A stretch of DNA of 64,000 nucleotides, taken from contig JAHBXN010000001.1 of NCBI GenBank assembly GCA_019636475.1, positions 186,001 through 250,000 on the forward strand, in the 5' to 3' direction. This stretch comes from Phycisphaerae bacterium (GTDB lineage Bacteria; Planctomycetota; Phycisphaerae; UBA1845; UTPLA1). Made by a program: the position numbers and the translations under genes. Shown here piece after piece: positions 7,833 to 48,074 of the stretch (positions are counted from its first letter, which is position 1; each line of letters starts with the position of its first letter). A model generated the notes under the pieces. The model was not told where the DNA came from and ran no database searches. It saw nothing but the letters and a program-made list of their open reading frames with translations.

Positions 7833-8516
7833 ATGGATGGAACTTTTTCGCATTCCGAGCGTCCAAACTCATTGACGGACGCAATCGGCGGTGCAGCCCG
7901 GCCCCCGGGCGGGGTGGACCCCGGCATCGACGCGGATGCTTCGCTCCTCGCAGCGTGCCGGCGCGGTGAAGCCGCTGCTTATGGCGAACTGGTGCGGCGC
8001 TACCAGGACCGAGTCTTCAATCTCTGCTTTCGGATGTGCGGAAGCCGCGAGGACGCGGAGGACCACACCCAGGAGGCCTTCGTGCGGGCGATGCAATCGC
8101 TCGATCGGTTCGCGGAGCGTTCACGGTTCTATACCTGGGTGTTTCGAATCGCGGTCAATCTGGTGATCAGCGATCGGCGCAAATCGGGACGTCGCACGAT
8201 GTACTCGCTCGAATCAAGACCGGACGAATCCGAAGACGGCCACGGCCGCGATTCGCGTCGTGCGAACGTTAAGTCAGGTGTTTCGCAACCGCACGATCAG
8301 ATGGTTGCCGCCGAACAGCGGGAGGCCGTTTCCTCGGCGCTGATGAAAATTGACGAGGAGCACCGAACGGTGCTGGTGCTTCGGGACATGGAAGGACTGA
8401 ATTATGAAGAAATCGCGGATGTACTGGACATCCCGACGGGAACAGTAAAGTCGCGAATTCATCGCGCAAGACAGGCGATTCGCGACTTGCTCGCACCGCT
8501 GATTCAGGCGGAATGA
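7833..8516 (+). CDS. ECF-type RNA polymerase sigma factor (RpoE-like)
   Basis: This 227-residue ECF sigma factor redirects RNA polymerase to a small regulon. Region 2 runs from about residue 45 (YQDRVFNLCFRMCGSREDAE, then FYTWVFRIAVNLVISDRRK). An acidic, Arg-rich linker separates it from region 4 (KIDEEHRTVLVLRDMEGLNY, then PTGTVKSRIHRARQAIRDLL), which reads the -35 element. The ATG at 7833 is chosen over an earlier in-frame start at 7671, because the longer version adds a tail unlike the family. The next gene, 12 bp downstream, is a membrane anti-sigma factor, so the pair probably forms an envelope-stress switch. The inducing signal is not evident. Confidence 0.92.
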   Translation: MDGTFSHSERPNSLTDAIGGAARPPGGVDPGIDADASLLAACRRGEAAAYGELVRRYQDRVFNLCFRMCGSREDAEDHTQEAFVRAMQSLDRFAERSRFYTWVFRIAVNLVISDRRKSGRRTMYSLESRPDESEDGHGRDSRRANVKSGVSQPHDQMVAAEQREAVSSALMKIDEEHRTVLVLRDMEGLNYEEIADVLDIPTGTVKSRIHRARQAIRDLLAPLIQAE

Positions 8517-22530: not shown

Positions 22531-23187
22531 TCAACCTCCGGACATCGCCTTCCTGCCCGCTGCCGCTCGTCGGCTTCTCCCCTCGTCGGTGAGCCATTCG
22601 CGCAACCGGGCGAGCCCGCGATGAGATCGCGCCAGCGCCGTCCCGAGGGGAATGCCCGTCACTTCGGAGATTTCCTTAAATGACAACTGCGAAAAATGGC
22701 GGAGCATGACAACCTCACGCTCTGCTTCCGGCATCTCCTGGAGGGCTGCGTTCAATGCGTCCATTTCCTCCTGATGTACCAGCCGGGCATCCACGTCTTC
22801 GACGGCGCTCTCCAACTCGCTCAGCCGCGCTGCTCCTCCCAGACTCTGATCCGGCGTTCTGGAAGCCGAGTCGCCCTCGCCGGCATGGTTCCGCAATCGC
22901 CTGGTTCGGCGAATACGATCCCGGGCCAGATTCGCCGCGATTCGAAACAGCCAGGGCTCAAACCTGCCGTCGTGCCGATACGCCGGGAGCATTCTTACCA
23001 CCCGCAGGAATACCTCCTGAACCAGATCCTCGGAGTCCTGCCGCGAACCGGTCATCCGGTAGAGGAATCCGGCAACGCGCGAACCAAAGCAGTCAATAAG
23101 GCGATCAAACGCGGCAGCCTCCCCGCGTTGTGCGCCTCGAATGACTTCCGACAAGGCTGCGTCGTCCATTCGCTCCTCGATTGGCAT
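22531..23187 (-). CDS. ECF-type RNA polymerase sigma factor (second system)
   Basis: This 218-residue ECF sigma factor has region 2 at about residues 25-95 (FGSRVAGFLYRMTGSRQDSE, DLVQEVFLRVVRMLPAYRHD, FEPWLFRIAANLARDRIRR). A linker rich in Ser/Asp/Glu follows, then region 4 (QEMPEAEREVVMLRHFSQLS, GIPLGTALARSHRGLARLRE). The R-x-H-R-G-L-x-R-L-R ending is typical of ECF -35 recognition helices. The start is either the ATG at 23187 or the one at 23169, which has GAGG 5 nt upstream; the difference is six residues. The gene begins an operon with the anti-sigma and coiled-coil genes. Confidence 0.9.
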   Translation of the reverse strand: MPIEERMDDAALSEVIRGAQRGEAAAFDRLIDCFGSRVAGFLYRMTGSRQDSEDLVQEVFLRVVRMLPAYRHDGRFEPWLFRIAANLARDRIRRTRRLRNHAGEGDSASRTPDQSLGGAARLSELESAVEDVDARLVHQEEMDALNAALQEMPEAEREVVMLRHFSQLSFKEISEVTGIPLGTALARSHRGLARLREWLTDEGRSRRAAAGRKAMSGG

Positions 23188-42633: not shown

Positions 42634-43131
42634 ATGCAAATCAGATTATTGGCAACACGGGCGCTCGCCGCAGGCATGATCGCGGCCGTAATTGGCTGCG
42701 ATTCGTCATCAAACAGCAAGCCGGCAGACCCCAAAACGACCACCACGGCCCCTCAAAGCGCCGCAAAACCCACGCGCATTGAGTGGGTCAAAGACCTGGA
42801 TACCGCCAAGACGCTCGCAAAACAGTCCGGCAAGCTCATTATGATCGACGTTTTCACGACCTGGTGCGGTCCATGTAAGATGCTTGATCAGCGCACTTTT
42901 CCCGATCCCCGCGTCATTGCCGCAGCAGGCCGTGTCGTGCCGCTTAAGTCCAACGGCGAATTGGAAGGACGCTCCCTCGTCTCGAATTACTCCATCCGCG
43001 GGTATCCGGCGATACTTTTTGTTGATGCGAATGGGAAGCTGCACGGAATGGTCATGGGTTACCAGCCGCCGGACGTTCTGGCGCCGCAGATCACAAAATT
43101 CGCCGACGATTTTGCCCGCAGCAGGAGCTGA
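42634..43131 (+). CDS. Thioredoxin-fold lipoprotein
   Basis: This 165-residue lipoprotein has the lipobox LAAGMIAAVIGC (Cys22), a Ser/Asn/Thr/Pro linker, and a thioredoxin-like domain from about residue 48. The active site is WCGPC (Cys78, Cys81) within IDVFTTWCGPCKMLDQRTF. The domain keeps the cis-Pro region (GYPAILFVDANGKLHG). It is probably a membrane-attached periplasmic disulfide reductase or cytochrome c maturation-type protein. The sequence resembles thioredoxin_7-type proteins (HxxW-like DUF255/DsbD-C terminus). The partner is unknown. It is separated from the structured RNA region by about 130 bp. Confidence 0.87.
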   Translation: MQIRLLATRALAAGMIAAVIGCDSSSNSKPADPKTTTTAPQSAAKPTRIEWVKDLDTAKTLAKQSGKLIMIDVFTTWCGPCKMLDQRTFPDPRVIAAAGRVVPLKSNGELEGRSLVSNYSIRGYPAILFVDANGKLHGMVMGYQPPDVLAPQITKFADDFARSRS

Positions 43132-43264
43132 TTCGAGGAGCGAGCGACGGCATAAATCTCGTCTCAATAAATAGTTATGGAATCAGGTCGATCCTGCCCG
43201 GGCTTGCCTCAAAAAATCCGCAGTATTCGGAATATCTGATTGACTTTTCCGGTTTTTACAAAAT

Positions 43265-43414
43265 GGACGGGCTTTCTGCCGTCCCAGCGATGCAAATCGC
43301 GCCATGAGGCGCACAAAAACAGCGATGAGAAGCGTGTTTTCCAGTGGGTGATTGTCGGCTCGCCCACCCGCTGGTGTGGCCCACTCGGTGGTCGGATCGA
43401 GTGGGCTTTTTTTT
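43265..43414 (+). ncRNA. Candidate structured RNA ending in an intrinsic terminator
   Basis: Five successive hairpins are seen in 150 nt. They are GGACGG/CCGTCC (43265-43284), GCGAT-GCAA-ATCGC with a GNRA tetraloop (43287-43300), GCGCC-ATGA-GGCGC (43299-43312), AAAACA/TGTTTT (43316-43340) and a 10-bp stem at 43341-43374. A perfect 9-bp terminator hairpin then closes the element (43379-43414). AGTGGG at 43343-43348 could instead pair with CCCACT at 43380-43385, breaking the terminator, so an attenuator or riboswitch is possible as well as a free sRNA. No convincing promoter is seen; TTGACT at 43240 lacks a good -10. I recognise no known RNA family. Confidence 0.45.
43379..43414 (+). terminator. 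Strong intrinsic terminator
   Basis: GCCCACTCG (43379-43387) pairs perfectly with CGAGTGGGC (43398-43406) across a 10-nt loop, followed by eight Ts (43407-43414). It lies 248 nt after the thioredoxin gene and 150 nt before the next gene start, so it may serve the structured RNA, the thioredoxin message or an attenuated leader of the downstream gene. Confidence 0.85.
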
Positions 43415-43563
43415 GCGCCCACGTCCCCGAAGTCCACCATTTGCGCTCAAATTCGCCATCGTTTGCGGGGATCCGGTGCCTGACAACCTCGCCAATCTTC
43501 CGCTAACATAGACCCCACGCAGAGTTACGATCCGCAATCAGATTTCACAGGACGCTCCGCAAA

Positions 43564-46128
43564 ATGCAAAAATCCACTGCGGCCCCCGCAGCCCAATCCG
43601 TCGGAATTTCTCTCGAGTGGATTTCGCTGAACGCCACCGTTTTTGTCTCCAGCGCCGCGATCATGATGATCGAACTGGTCGCCGGGCGCATCATCGGCCG
43701 CCACCTCGGCGCATCGGTCTACACCTGGACTTCGGTCATCGGGATCGTCCTCGCCGGAATCGCCGTCGGGAACTACATCGGCGGACTGATCGCGGACCGC
43801 CATTCCTCGCACCGGACGCTTGCCCTGCTCTTTGTCTGCGGCTCGATCATGTCCGGGCTGATTGCCGTGTTCGATCATTTCGCCGAGGGCTTCAGCCCGC
43901 TCTGGACGTTTTCGTGGCCCATGCGCGTCGCCTCGCACGTCGCCATCGTCTTTTTCATCCCCACGGCGTTTCTGGGAACCATCAGCCCGGTCATCGCAAA
44001 AATGGCGCTGGACCTGGGACGCGAGCGTGGCCGCACCATCGGCGATATTTACGCCTGCGGCGTGGTCGGGAGCATCGTCGGCACTTTCATTGCGGGGTAC
44101 TTCCTCATCGGCCTCATCGGCACGCTCGGCGTCGTCTGGGCCGTCGCCGTCATCCTCGCGTTGATGGCGGCACTTTACGATCGACGAAATCCCGTGGTCT
44201 GGGTCTGGACGCCGGCCACCCTCCTGCTGACGGTCTGTGCCACATCCAACGCCGCGTGGGCGGTTTCGGCCGGTGAAGCCCTGCTCATCCGACTGCCCCG
44301 ATCCGAGAACGTCATTTACCAGACAGAGAGCAATTACTCCTATATCGAGATCGTCCAGTTTTCAAAGGAACCGGACATCCGCGGCATGCACCTCGACACG
44401 CTGCTCCACAGCCAGAAGCAGATGGACCGCATCGACGACTTCCGATACGCCTACGAGAAGGTCTATCTCGCCATCACCCGTCGACTGCGTCCCGACGCCC
44501 GGCGCATCGACAGCCTCACCATCGGCGGCGGCGGATATGTCTATCCCCAGTTCATGAACCAGACCTGGCCCGACAGCCGGACCGACGTCGTCGAAATCGA
44601 CCCCGCCGTGACCGAAGCCGCCATGGCCGCATTCGGCCTGCCGCGCGACACCACCATCAACTACTTCCACGAGGACGGCCGCGTCTTCGTCGATCGTCTT
44701 GCCGGCAGGATTAGCGGCAGCGCGATGACCGCGCCATATGACTTCATCTACTGCGACGCGGTCAACGATTACAGCGTGCCGCACCAGCTCACCACGCGCG
44801 AGTTCATGACCCACGCCCGGAGCCTGCTCAAGCCCGACGGCGCATACCTCATGAACATGATCGATCTCTACAACAGCGGCCTTCTGCTGGGAGCCATCAT
44901 CTCGACCATGCAGGACGTCTTCCCCCATGTGAACGTCTTCGTCGAACAGCAGCCGCTCACGCTGGACGACGGCAGGCCCAACGAGCAGATCCGTGCCACA
45001 CGCATGACATTCATCGTCGCCGGAACCAACCAGCCCTTTGACGTCAACAACCTCGGGCCGCTCTACCGCGCCGACTGCGCAATCTTCCCGCTGAGCCAGG
45101 CCGAGAAAGAAGCCGTGCGCGAGCGATCCGGCTATGTCGTCCTGACCGACGGCTACGCCCCCGTTGAAAACCTCCTCGCCCCGGTCGTCCGCGATTCGGC
45201 GCTCGCCAAGGCCGTCGAAGAGTGGAACCAACTGGCCAAGGCCGAAGTGCTCGCCAAGCGATATGCCCGCGGCGTCGAGATCCTGCAGAAGGCACTCGGA
45301 AAATTTCCCGACCCGGTCTATCAACTGCCCCTGGCGGAGACTCTCGGAAACACCTACGAGCTCATGGGGCGCTACGCCGACGCCGCGACCCAGTTCGAAA
45401 AAGTGCTGAAGCTCAATGCACTCAACCAGCGGGCCCACGCCGGCCTCGTCACCTGCTACACCGAATTGAAACAGCCCGAGAAGGCCGCCGAGATTTTCGC
45501 CGACCTCGTTGAGATCGTGCCCAACGACGCCTCGCTGCGATTCAGCTTCGGAGGCCTCCTGCTTTCGATCGGGCAATACAACGAATCGATCGCGCAGTTC
45601 GCCGAGGTCGTCGCGATCGATCCGCACAACTGCGCCGCATACAACAACATGGGCGTCGCCCTGATGCGGCTCAACAATCCGCGATCCGCGGTCAAGGCGT
45701 TCCGCCTCGCGCTCCGGTGCGACCCCGCGAGCGCCGATGCCCGGCGCAATCTTGATTCCCTCATCAAAAACGACAGCGTCCAGCGCGAGGCCGAACTCGC
45801 CGCCGCGCTTCAGGCCGCCCAGCGGCAGCCCGATCTGCCCGGCGCCACGAAAGACGTCGCAAACGCCTACTATGCACTGCACTATTTCGAGGAAGCGCTG
45901 GCGGCGTACGATCGGGTGATCGCCGCGCAGCCTGATGACGCGGATGCCCAGTTCAAACGGGCAAACTGCCTGCTCGAACTCCAGCGCCTCGACGAAGCCA
46001 AAGCGGGTTACCGCCGCGTGCTGGAAATCCAGCCCGGCCACCCCGAGGCCGCCATGTACATCCAGCGAATTGACGAATTTCAATCCCGGAACCCGGCCTC
46101 TTCGACCCCGGCGTCCCATCCGGAATAG
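43564..46128 (+). CDS. Fused membrane/spermidine-synthase-like/TPR protein
   Basis: This 854-residue protein has three parts. The first ~220 residues hold about 7 transmembrane helices (WISLNATVFVSSAAIMMIEL, TWTSVIGIVLAGIAVGNYIG, FFIPTAFLGTISPVIAKMAL), as in 'fused MFS/spermidine synthase' proteins. A methyltransferase-like spermidine-synthase domain follows (about 230-500), with LTIGGGGYVYPQFMNQ, TDVVEIDPAVTEAAM and NYFHEDGRVFVDRLA. The C-terminal ~310 residues are TPR repeats (about 7). The usual catalytic D-A-F of spermidine synthase is replaced by DAVND, so polyamine synthesis is doubtful. The substrate of the transferase-like domain is unknown. The start has no strong ribosome binding site. 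Confidence 0.75.
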   Translation: MQKSTAAPAAQSVGISLEWISLNATVFVSSAAIMMIELVAGRIIGRHLGASVYTWTSVIGIVLAGIAVGNYIGGLIADRHSSHRTLALLFVCGSIMSGLIAVFDHFAEGFSPLWTFSWPMRVASHVAIVFFIPTAFLGTISPVIAKMALDLGRERGRTIGDIYACGVVGSIVGTFIAGYFLIGLIGTLGVVWAVAVILALMAALYDRRNPVVWVWTPATLLLTVCATSNAAWAVSAGEALLIRLPRSENVIYQTESNYSYIEIVQFSKEPDIRGMHLDTLLHSQKQMDRIDDFRYAYEKVYLAITRRLRPDARRIDSLTIGGGGYVYPQFMNQTWPDSRTDVVEIDPAVTEAAMAAFGLPRDTTINYFHEDGRVFVDRLAGRISGSAMTAPYDFIYCDAVNDYSVPHQLTTREFMTHARSLLKPDGAYLMNMIDLYNSGLLLGAIISTMQDVFPHVNVFVEQQPLTLDDGRPNEQIRATRMTFIVAGTNQPFDVNNLGPLYRADCAIFPLSQAEKEAVRERSGYVVLTDGYAPVENLLAPVVRDSALAKAVEEWNQLAKAEVLAKRYARGVEILQKALGKFPDPVYQLPLAETLGNTYELMGRYADAATQFEKVLKLNALNQRAHAGLVTCYTELKQPEKAAEIFADLVEIVPNDASLRFSFGGLLLSIGQYNESIAQFAEVVAIDPHNCAAYNNMGVALMRLNNPRSAVKAFRLALRCDPASADARRNLDSLIKNDSVQREAELAAALQAAQRQPDLPGATKDVANAYYALHYFEEALAAYDRVIAAQPDDADAQFKRANCLLELQRLDEAKAGYRRVLEIQPGHPEAAMYIQRIDEFQSRNPASSTPASHPE

Positions 46129-47399: not shown

Positions 47400-48074
47400 T
47401 TACTTGCGGCGTCGGATCAGGGCGATCGCACCGAAAGCGAGCAGGGCCATGGTGGCCGGCTCGGGAACGTTGCGAACGACGATGACCGGGAGTTGGCCCC
47501 AAGTGCCGCCCGGGTTTCCGTCGTAGCCGTTGATGCCGTACGACAGGCCGTTCGGACCAACGGTGCCGTACCAAGCGAAACCAGAGTTTTCGCCGTAGTA
47601 CATGTTGGCTCCGCCGTAGTCACCGGTGACGTTGACGATGTTGCCGAGGGCCTCGCCGAGGAGGTTCAGGTTGAAGTTATAGACATGACCCGCGCTGCCA
47701 CCCGGAACTGCCAGAGTCGACTGACCAGCAGTCAGTGAAGAACCGGCAGGACCAGTACCAGTGACGACGTTATAACCAGATCCAAGGAACACGCCGTTCG
47801 AGAACGTGCCGGGAGCGCTCGAGTTCAGAGCGATCGCCCAGCCAGCCATGCCGGCGTTGTAGGTGTTCGTGAAGCGAAAGCCGATGGTCAAAGCGACATC
47901 GCCCTGCTTCTCGATGACCAGCGCCTGGCCGGGGCCGGACGACACGACCTGGACCGAGCCAGCGCCCGGGCCGCTCGCGCCTTCGAGCGTGAACCAAGCG
48001 GCGTCAGCCGCCCTGGCGACTGATGCGCTGCCGATGAGGGCGAGCGCCGCAACCAACAAACCAAGTTTCTTCAT
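47400..48074 (-). CDS. PEP-CTERM sorted surface protein
   Basis: This 224-residue protein has a cleavable signal peptide (LLVAALALIGSASVARA) and a C-terminal exosortase sorting signal at about residues 203-224. The signal begins VPEPATMALLAFGA, a PEP motif followed by a hydrophobic stretch, and ends in RRRK. The mature part is Gly/Ser/Thr-rich and beta-like (GQALVIEKQGDVALTIGFRF, GEALGNIVNVTGDYGGANMY). PEP-CTERM proteins are processed by exosortase XrtA, which is not in this window. A strong AAGAAGGAG site lies before the ATG. It is 151 bp downstream of the dockerin-like gene and could be part of its transcript. Confidence 0.88.
   Translation of the reverse strand: MKKLGLLVAALALIGSASVARAADAAWFTLEGASGPGAGSVQVVSSGPGQALVIEKQGDVALTIGFRFTNTYNAGMAGWAIALNSSAPGTFSNGVFLGSGYNVVTGTGPAGSSLTAGQSTLAVPGGSAGHVYNFNLNLLGEALGNIVNVTGDYGGANMYYGENSGFAWYGTVGPNGLSYGINGYDGNPGGTWGQLPVIVVRNVPEPATMALLAFGAIALIRRRK

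Follow-up and report, generated by a model that had tools for sequence, protein, structure and literature searches.

Between a thioredoxin lipoprotein gene and a gene for a large protein with TPR repeats, the genome of a Phycisphaerae bacterium (assembly GCA_019636475.1) carries what we read, at a probability of about 0.77, as a small RNA gene standing on its own. The gene would form the noncoding arm of an ECF sigma response resembling those of SigH/SigR, and its product would act in trans via its loop. Sequence comparison showed the last two hairpins to be a conserved RNA under selection for structure and loop, and showed that its type of promoter also stands ahead of an ECF sigma/anti-sigma operon, both here and in related genomes. 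All coordinates refer to the window, i.e. the whole stretch of 64,000 nucleotides analyzed (contig JAHBXN010000001.1, positions 186,001 to 250,000 of the forward strand), and are collected in Table 1.

Table 1. Elements of the predicted small RNA gene in the window
Feature	Position	Strand	Basis or remark
-35 element GGAATA of the predicted ECF-sigma promoter	43229-43234	+	
-10 element GTT, 17 nt beyond GGAATA	43252-43254	+	
Predicted small RNA, about 153 nt	43262-43414	+	5' end predicted from promoter (43260-43265), 3' end predicted from terminator
Variable 5' domain of the RNA (four hairpins)	43265-43340	+	sequence not conserved
Hairpin GGACGG/CCGTCC	43265-43284	+	sequence reading
Hairpin GCGAT-GCAA-ATCGC (GNRA loop)	43287-43300	+	sequence reading
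Hairpin GCGCC/GGCGC	43299-43312	+	two bases in common with the GCGAT-GCAA-ATCGC hairpin
Hairpin AAAACA/TGTTTT	about 43316-43340	+	sequence reading
Conserved hairpin H1	43341-43374 (arms 43341-43350 and 43365-43374)	+	covariation
Near-invariant H1 loop TCGGCTCGCC	43355-43364	+	candidate seed or binding site, 45/48 identical
Conserved hairpin H2 with T8, intrinsic terminator	43378-43414	+	terminator scan, covariation
H2 loop GGTCGGA	43390-43396	+	
T-run of 8 T after H2	43407-43414	+	

Structure and distribution of the RNA

A preliminary description had listed consecutive hairpins at 43240-43414, one with a GCAA tetraloop, and a final stem followed by eight Ts. Reading of the sequence found the hairpins there, tetraloop included, and the final stem corresponds to H2, which spans 43378-43407 and runs into the eight Ts. 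The region 43240-43420 on the plus strand was more stable than all of 200 shuffled sequences (fold z −3.28), and for the predicted transcript the z value was −3.78 with none of 200 shuffles equally stable. The minus strand also folded well (z −2.70, one of 200 shuffles equally stable), as expected for a region rich in inverted repeats. The strand is therefore not fixed by structure alone; the T-run, the promoter and the conservation fix it. Between 42500 and 44500 four terminator-like sites were found against a shuffle average of 2.1, with H2 being the longest.

A DNA-level search of 61 genomes of the order (17 from the bacterium's own family, f1, and 44 others) detected the element in 14 genomes, all of them in the own family, and gave no match in the 44 order genomes outside it. 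At this level conservation was confined to about 43333-43421, that is to the last two hairpins; the four 5' hairpins upstream of H1 had no sequence conservation in relatives. Covariance models were then built from the 14 family members (A1/R1) and subsequently from 40 members (A3/R2). With R2, 55 of 114 genomes of the order matched at E <= 0.001, and in 47 of the 114 the score was at least 45.9 bits, with one such place per genome. These 47 sequences, all inspected by eye, come from 40 genera in total and are distributed over the families f1 (14), f4 (21), f8 (9) and f5, f6 and f7 (one each). Together with one genome of another order, G323, which like them has a single strong place, they make up the set of 48 members used below, counted after removal of the duplicate rows L126 and L170, which represent the same place as L081. 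Within the order this selection was independent of the loop, although all members used to build the models carry it.

The class sample gave matches in 68 of 397 genomes, and outside the order only that of G323 was convincing (56 bits, exact loop); G313 (41.9 bits) and G235 (40.7 bits) were not. In the phylum sample, which overlaps with the order and class samples as these do with each other, 51 of 392 genomes matched at E <= 0.001. None but the own genome exceeded 32.4 bits, and the loop was present in none of the four phylum-sample matches inspected. A pattern scan of named genomes returned 47 loci. Eighteen scored at least 68.8 bits, all with planctomycete names (12 Phycisphaerae or Phycisphaerales) and some from genomes already counted in the model search. 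The next score was 19.6 bits (L097), and the remaining 29 loci had either this score or no model match at E <= 0.001, as was the case for all four viral pattern matches. Model matches lacking the loop were regarded as ordinary terminators and discarded (L041, L042, L059, L061-L064, L070, L072, L132-L134, L136, L159, L161 and L163-L169), including the one in G235 (L059/L161) despite its 40.7 bits with R2. The G313 match (L160) and L162 were left out of all counts. L162 (G008:C1:269497-269591) is possibly a second, diverged copy in G008, with 34.9 bits, the loop CGGGCTCGCC, a different stem and a terminator; its GGAAT-N17-GTT seemingly lies within the end of the preceding coding sequence.

In the alignment of 40 members 93.9% of the cells were paired. 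Changes on both sides were seen in 20 of 25 pairs, compared to an average of 16.6 in shuffled alignments, 4 of 500 of which were as high. The covariation score was 0.724 versus 0.262 for the shuffles and 0.07 to 0.17 for slid pairings, in an alignment which, being fitted to the model, leans towards the modelled structure. For H1, both-side changes occurred in all 12 pairs and 94.2% of the cells were paired (40 sequences); for H2 the corresponding values were 8 of 11 pairs and 96.1%. Two further model pairs inside the loop showed no changes on both sides and are unsupported. The structured RNA proposed in the preliminary description is thus borne out in relatives by the covariance model, with compensatory changes in every pair of H1.

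The loop TCGGCTCGCC was identical in 45 of 48 members, the exceptions being CCGGCTCGCC, CTGGCTCGCC and CCGGCCCGCC, and its core GGCTCGCC was present in 47; the terminator-loop word GGTCGGA was found in 25 of 48. Upstream of the loop, the segment from −100 to −20 had a mean fold z of −0.96, and segments farther upstream gave −0.08 and 0.05 (50 rows each, two duplicates included). Many f4 members (e.g. L049, L052, L065 and L153) have an extra CTCCAC(N)GTGGAG hairpin at the predicted 5' end.

Rfam 15 gave no match in the window at the gathering threshold, and at 20 related loci it returned one tRNA-Sec and one tRNA, neither at the element. The best Rfam resemblance was to SorY (RF02651), which likewise has hairpins ending in a T-run; its 15.7 bits are far under the gathering score of 111. 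At a permissive threshold SorY and a betaproteobacterial toxic sRNA appeared with E values of 0.98 and 3.5, which we took as chance. The earlier view of a structured RNA that ends at about 43414 and belongs to no known family accordingly stands, on the covariation, the empty Rfam result and a promoter for a start at about 43262. No description of the RNA was found among the best matches in the open-licence literature on sRNAs, noncoding RNA, transcriptomes, Hfq or ECF sigma promoters of Phycisphaerae or Planctomycetes. The RNA is a new family; the ECF-dependent sRNA as a kind is already known.

Promoter and sigma factor operon

A scan for sigma-70 promoters found none at the RNA's 5' end, and other upstream motifs were therefore looked for. 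The most enriched hexamer 75 to 140 nt upstream of the loop was GGAATA, present in 28 of 48 members, whereas the best hexamer in four control regions reached 12 members at most. When the 28 sequences were aligned on GGAATA, a GTT that had not been selected for appeared after exactly 17 nt (G 0.93, T 0.89, T 0.96). Between −170 and −35 of the loop, GGAAT-N17-19-GTT was found in 32 of 48 members, against a shuffled mean of 0.46 (maximum 2), and a control region had it in 0 of 48. These counts are inflated because the members are related, yet the surrounding columns are hardly conserved. The strict motif is missing in 16 of the 48. In a passage of PMC2375139 the SigR motif of Streptomyces is given as GGAAT-N18-GTT, and in one of PMC10012870 the corynebacterial SigH motif as GGAAT-N18-19-GTT, with some examples written GGAATA-N17-GTT. 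Judged by its sequence, the motif upstream of the RNA is an ECF-sigma promoter. Its position at 43229-43254 predicts a start at about 43262, just 5' of the first hairpin, and hence the length of about 153 nt. Exact GGAATA-N17-GTT occurs at 13 sites in the own genome compared to 11 for a reversed control, so that no large regulon is visible. An intergenic site, L228 (G000:C3:224043-224068), lies upstream of a protein gene whose product we take to hold an FHA-like domain; it is a possible further member of the regulon. About 10 to 18 nt upstream of GGAATA the sRNA promoters have an A/T tract of up to 89% A/T (window 43211-43217), which may be an UP-like element. At the matching positions of the sigma operon promoters this tract is weaker (up to 73%).

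Sigma70 region 2 matched 30 times in the own genome. Among the genes concerned, the ECF gene L240 (G000:C6 near 321.6 kb) is immediately preceded by GGAATA-N18-GTT. The product of the gene that follows it shows an HxxxCxxC motif, a weak match to anti-sigma families and a hydrophobic segment that is probably membrane-spanning. Of the 114 genomes of the order, 51 yielded a homologue of this anti-sigma factor, and the 30 loci listed were examined for the promoter. In the 160 nt searched upstream of the sigma gene, GGAAT-N17-19-GTT was present at 22 of the 30, compared to a shuffled mean of 0.4 (maximum 3); the corresponding 160 nt had it at 0 of the 29 other sigma genes of the own genome. With a looser motif and search range the sigma loci rose to 24 of 30, two of these sites being at −309, and in a wider upstream stretch two of the 29 other own-genome sigma genes (L237 and L260) also had GGAAT-N17-19-GTT. 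The window itself contains two more Sigma70 region 2 genes, at 7989-8195 (plus strand) and 22897-23100 (minus strand), neither with such a promoter.

The clear co-occurrence table comes from the own family only: 14 genomes had both the RNA and the anti-sigma factor, two had neither and one, 75% complete, had the anti-sigma factor only (Fisher p 0.022). Order-wide the co-occurrence was not clean. In f8, many genomes with the sigma pair lack the RNA, and in f4 few of the RNA-bearing genomes gave an anti-sigma match, though many f4 RNAs have the promoter; fast divergence of the anti-sigma factor may explain this scarcity.

The promoter GGAAT-N18-19-GTT, as given in the sources above, links the planctomycete pair to the redox-stress ECF systems SigR/RsrA of Streptomyces and SigH/RshA of Mycobacterium and Corynebacterium. 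SigH is also the best solved match of the sigma factor (80.8 bits), virtually tied with SigE (80.6), and the anti-sigma factor shares the HxxxCxxC motif and a weak RsrA match. Both proteins nevertheless stay under the family cut-offs: the sigma factor scored 108.6 of 251.55 bits with TIGR02947 (SigR/SigH equivalog) and the anti-sigma factor 22.5 of 62.5 bits with TIGR03988 (RsrA). PRK12533 scored higher than TIGR02947 (123.8 of 248 bits); it and SigH_actino were the leading NCBIfam models for the sigma factor, both under cut-off. The hydrophobic, probably membrane-spanning segment of the anti-sigma factor is a further difference from these systems. A narrow search of the open-licence literature found no SigR-dependent sRNA in Streptomyces.

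As in ECF-sigma-dependent sRNAs, an ECF-type promoter was found at the predicted start of the RNA, in common with the sigma factor's operon, and H2 with its eight Ts forms an intrinsic terminator at the end. The RNA resembles MicA, RybB and MicL of enterobacteria and FoxI and FoxJ of Fusobacterium in its shortness, in having the promoter type of the ECF sigma's own gene and in its conserved candidate seed. MicA, RybB and MicL are described as sigmaE-dependent in a passage of PMC8103513, which gives the E. coli sigmaE −35 element as GGAACTT, whereas the planctomycete promoter is of the SigH/SigR type GGAAT-GTT; common −10 and −35 motifs of foxI, foxJ and rpoE are reported in a passage of PMC11005410. 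Unlike those sRNAs, the planctomycete RNA comes from another phylum and matches no Rfam family. Few sRNA families are annotated beyond the well-studied phyla, and a survey (PMC9029176) puts the number of distinct annotated sRNAs in the Planctomycetes-Verrucomicrobia-Chlamydiae group as a whole at 8. If our reading is true, Planctomycetota also possess an RNA arm of ECF stress responses, here with a promoter of the SigH/SigR type. Since comparison alone yields the RNA, its promoter, a probable sigma and anti-sigma factor and a candidate active site, a stress circuit becomes testable in a hardly studied class.

The loop and its possible partners

Apparent stress-type sigma control, combined with a loop that barely changes, suggests that the RNA probably regulates other genes rather than the adjacent one. 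In the proposed circuit, stress would release the (probably membrane-bound) anti-sigma factor and leave the ECF sigma free to transcribe its own operon and the small RNA. Transcription of the RNA would end at the T-run, and the exposed loop UCGGCUCGCC would then act in trans. Pairing with mRNAs is its most likely mode by analogy with the sigmaE-dependent sRNAs of other phyla, base pairing being how RNAs of this kind usually work.

For mRNA targets, exact GGGCGAGCCGA was searched in the own genome and found at 14 sites, one being the RNA itself. Thirteen sites of the own genome and 7 of the 13 in G011 were inspected, and 19 of them lay inside ORFs; at one GGGCGAGCCGA site, L203, an ORF starts 18 nt on. 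Over 17 genomes, counting the RNAs themselves, the loop complement occurred at 303 sites and the reversed control at 102, an excess that we tentatively put down to codon usage because the inspected sites are nearly all in coding sequence. For GGGCGAGCCG with an ATG no more than 14 nt beyond it, 38 loci among the matches listed were inspected. At L309 this ATG opens an ORF of 186 codons; at the remaining loci it was never the first start of an ORF of at least 60 codons. Apart from L203 and L309, no perfect loop complement just before an ORF start was thus found among the sites inspected.

Seven-mer complements to the loop were more frequent in the sigma operon than for permuted decamers (40 versus 15, P 0.014) and, less clearly, in the whole sigma loci (114 versus 64, P 0.056), with one recurrent site being a conserved coding motif. 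Near the sigma start, a 7-nt complement was present in 7 of 18 RNA-bearing genomes versus 0 of 12 others, and was not seen in the own genome; permutation gave P values of 0.002, 0.008 and 0.02 for three windows in a region chosen post hoc. Two of the seven genomes are near-identical congeners and two of the sites lie in a similar coding stretch. Since the region was picked after the positions had been seen, and in view of the related genomes and the coding stretch, we treat the sigma-start complement as a lead only.

Few start-proximal perfect complements, together with a near-invariant loop on stems that change freely, would also suit an ECF-controlled RNA that binds a protein, as a sponge or scaffold, or the ribosome via its loop instead of pairing with mRNAs. 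UCGGCUC is presumably also present in 23S rRNA close to the peptidyl transferase center; chance alone should give a 7-nt match at some place in rRNA. Conserved seeds are, however, usual for base-pairing sRNAs too, and we know of no protein partner. Binding of this kind is unlikely, while keeping an appreciable minority chance. We are somewhat more doubtful of a wider version of the pairing model, in which the RNA would serve a whole order of Planctomycetota as the noncoding arm of a SigH/SigR-like response to redox or envelope stress. It would feed back on its own sigma mRNA by loop pairing at the sigma start in part of the genomes, and the loop would act on other targets that hold it nearly fixed across about forty genera.

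Neighboring genes and coding potential

The readings that tie the element to an adjacent gene fare worse than the free-standing sRNA gene. It could be a mere terminator or a processed piece of the 3' UTR of the upstream thioredoxin lipoprotein mRNA, whose gene runs in the same direction and ends at 43131; functional sRNAs can arise from processed 3' ends. This is very unlikely in view of three observations: the ECF promoter stands between the thioredoxin gene and the RNA; a thioredoxin neighbor was found in no family relative (ORFs of at least 90 aa within about 3.5 kb); and in 9 of 22 genomes examined from other families, several of them with short flanks, a divergent radical SAM gene lies upstream instead. 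The latter gene, with an NPD.ACNFDC-like motif, adjoins the RNA at L045, L046, L047, L049, L050, L055, L056, L058 and L341, and in the own family a radical SAM gene adjoins it at L021 and L023. This adjacency is probably the ancestral neighborhood. Against NCBIfam the radical SAM neighbor gave weak matches only, the best being to the viperin family (22.6 bits, cut-off 180).

Still less probable is the earlier suggestion, made on the basis of two exclusive folds, that the element serves the gene downstream (start 43564) as an attenuator or riboswitch leader. In the window AGTGGG of the 5' arm of H1 is indeed complementary to CCCACT of the 5' arm of H2, and the terminator lies ahead of a co-directional gene. 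The same alternative pairing was, however, found in only 2 of 48 members, those of the window and L028. In no member does the longest Watson-Crick match between the 5'-arm regions of H1 and H2 exceed 6 bases, its range being 3 to 6. Nor is a downstream partner conserved: among 14 family loci (ORFs of at least 90 aa, about 3.5 kb) no neighbor family was common to more than three, and in 5 of 13 relatives (L016, L018, L022, L024 and L026) the next long ORF, as called mechanically, runs on the other strand. A leader is not supported by these observations. Small shared sets of neighbors do exist, e.g. in G001 with G015 and in G002 with G013. The downstream gene itself (43564-46128), previously called a membrane fusion protein, was not recognized as a classical one; it encodes a large protein for which Pfam gave C-terminal TPR repeats and a sub-threshold N-terminal MFS_1 match (30.6 of 33.4 bits).

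A small-protein or dual-function mRNA is the least credible reading, since the ORFs overlapping the region (88 codons on the plus strand, 85 and 93 on the minus strand) face stems that vary through paired changes and a one-base difference among close homologues just before the loop (TTG-TCGG versus TTGTTCGG), which shifts the frame.

Other neighbors of the RNA were noted at single loci or in small groups. L017, L020 and L025 (in G007, G006 and G016) have a gene in common upstream of the RNA, which we take to be prepilin-like from its FTLIELLV start. In G003 the RNA has a selenocysteine tRNA gene (L034 1310-1403, minus strand) at a distance of about 100 nt. In the window, the minus-strand ORF at 47400-48074 has a VPEPATMALLAFGAIALIRRRK tail, presumably PEP-CTERM-like.
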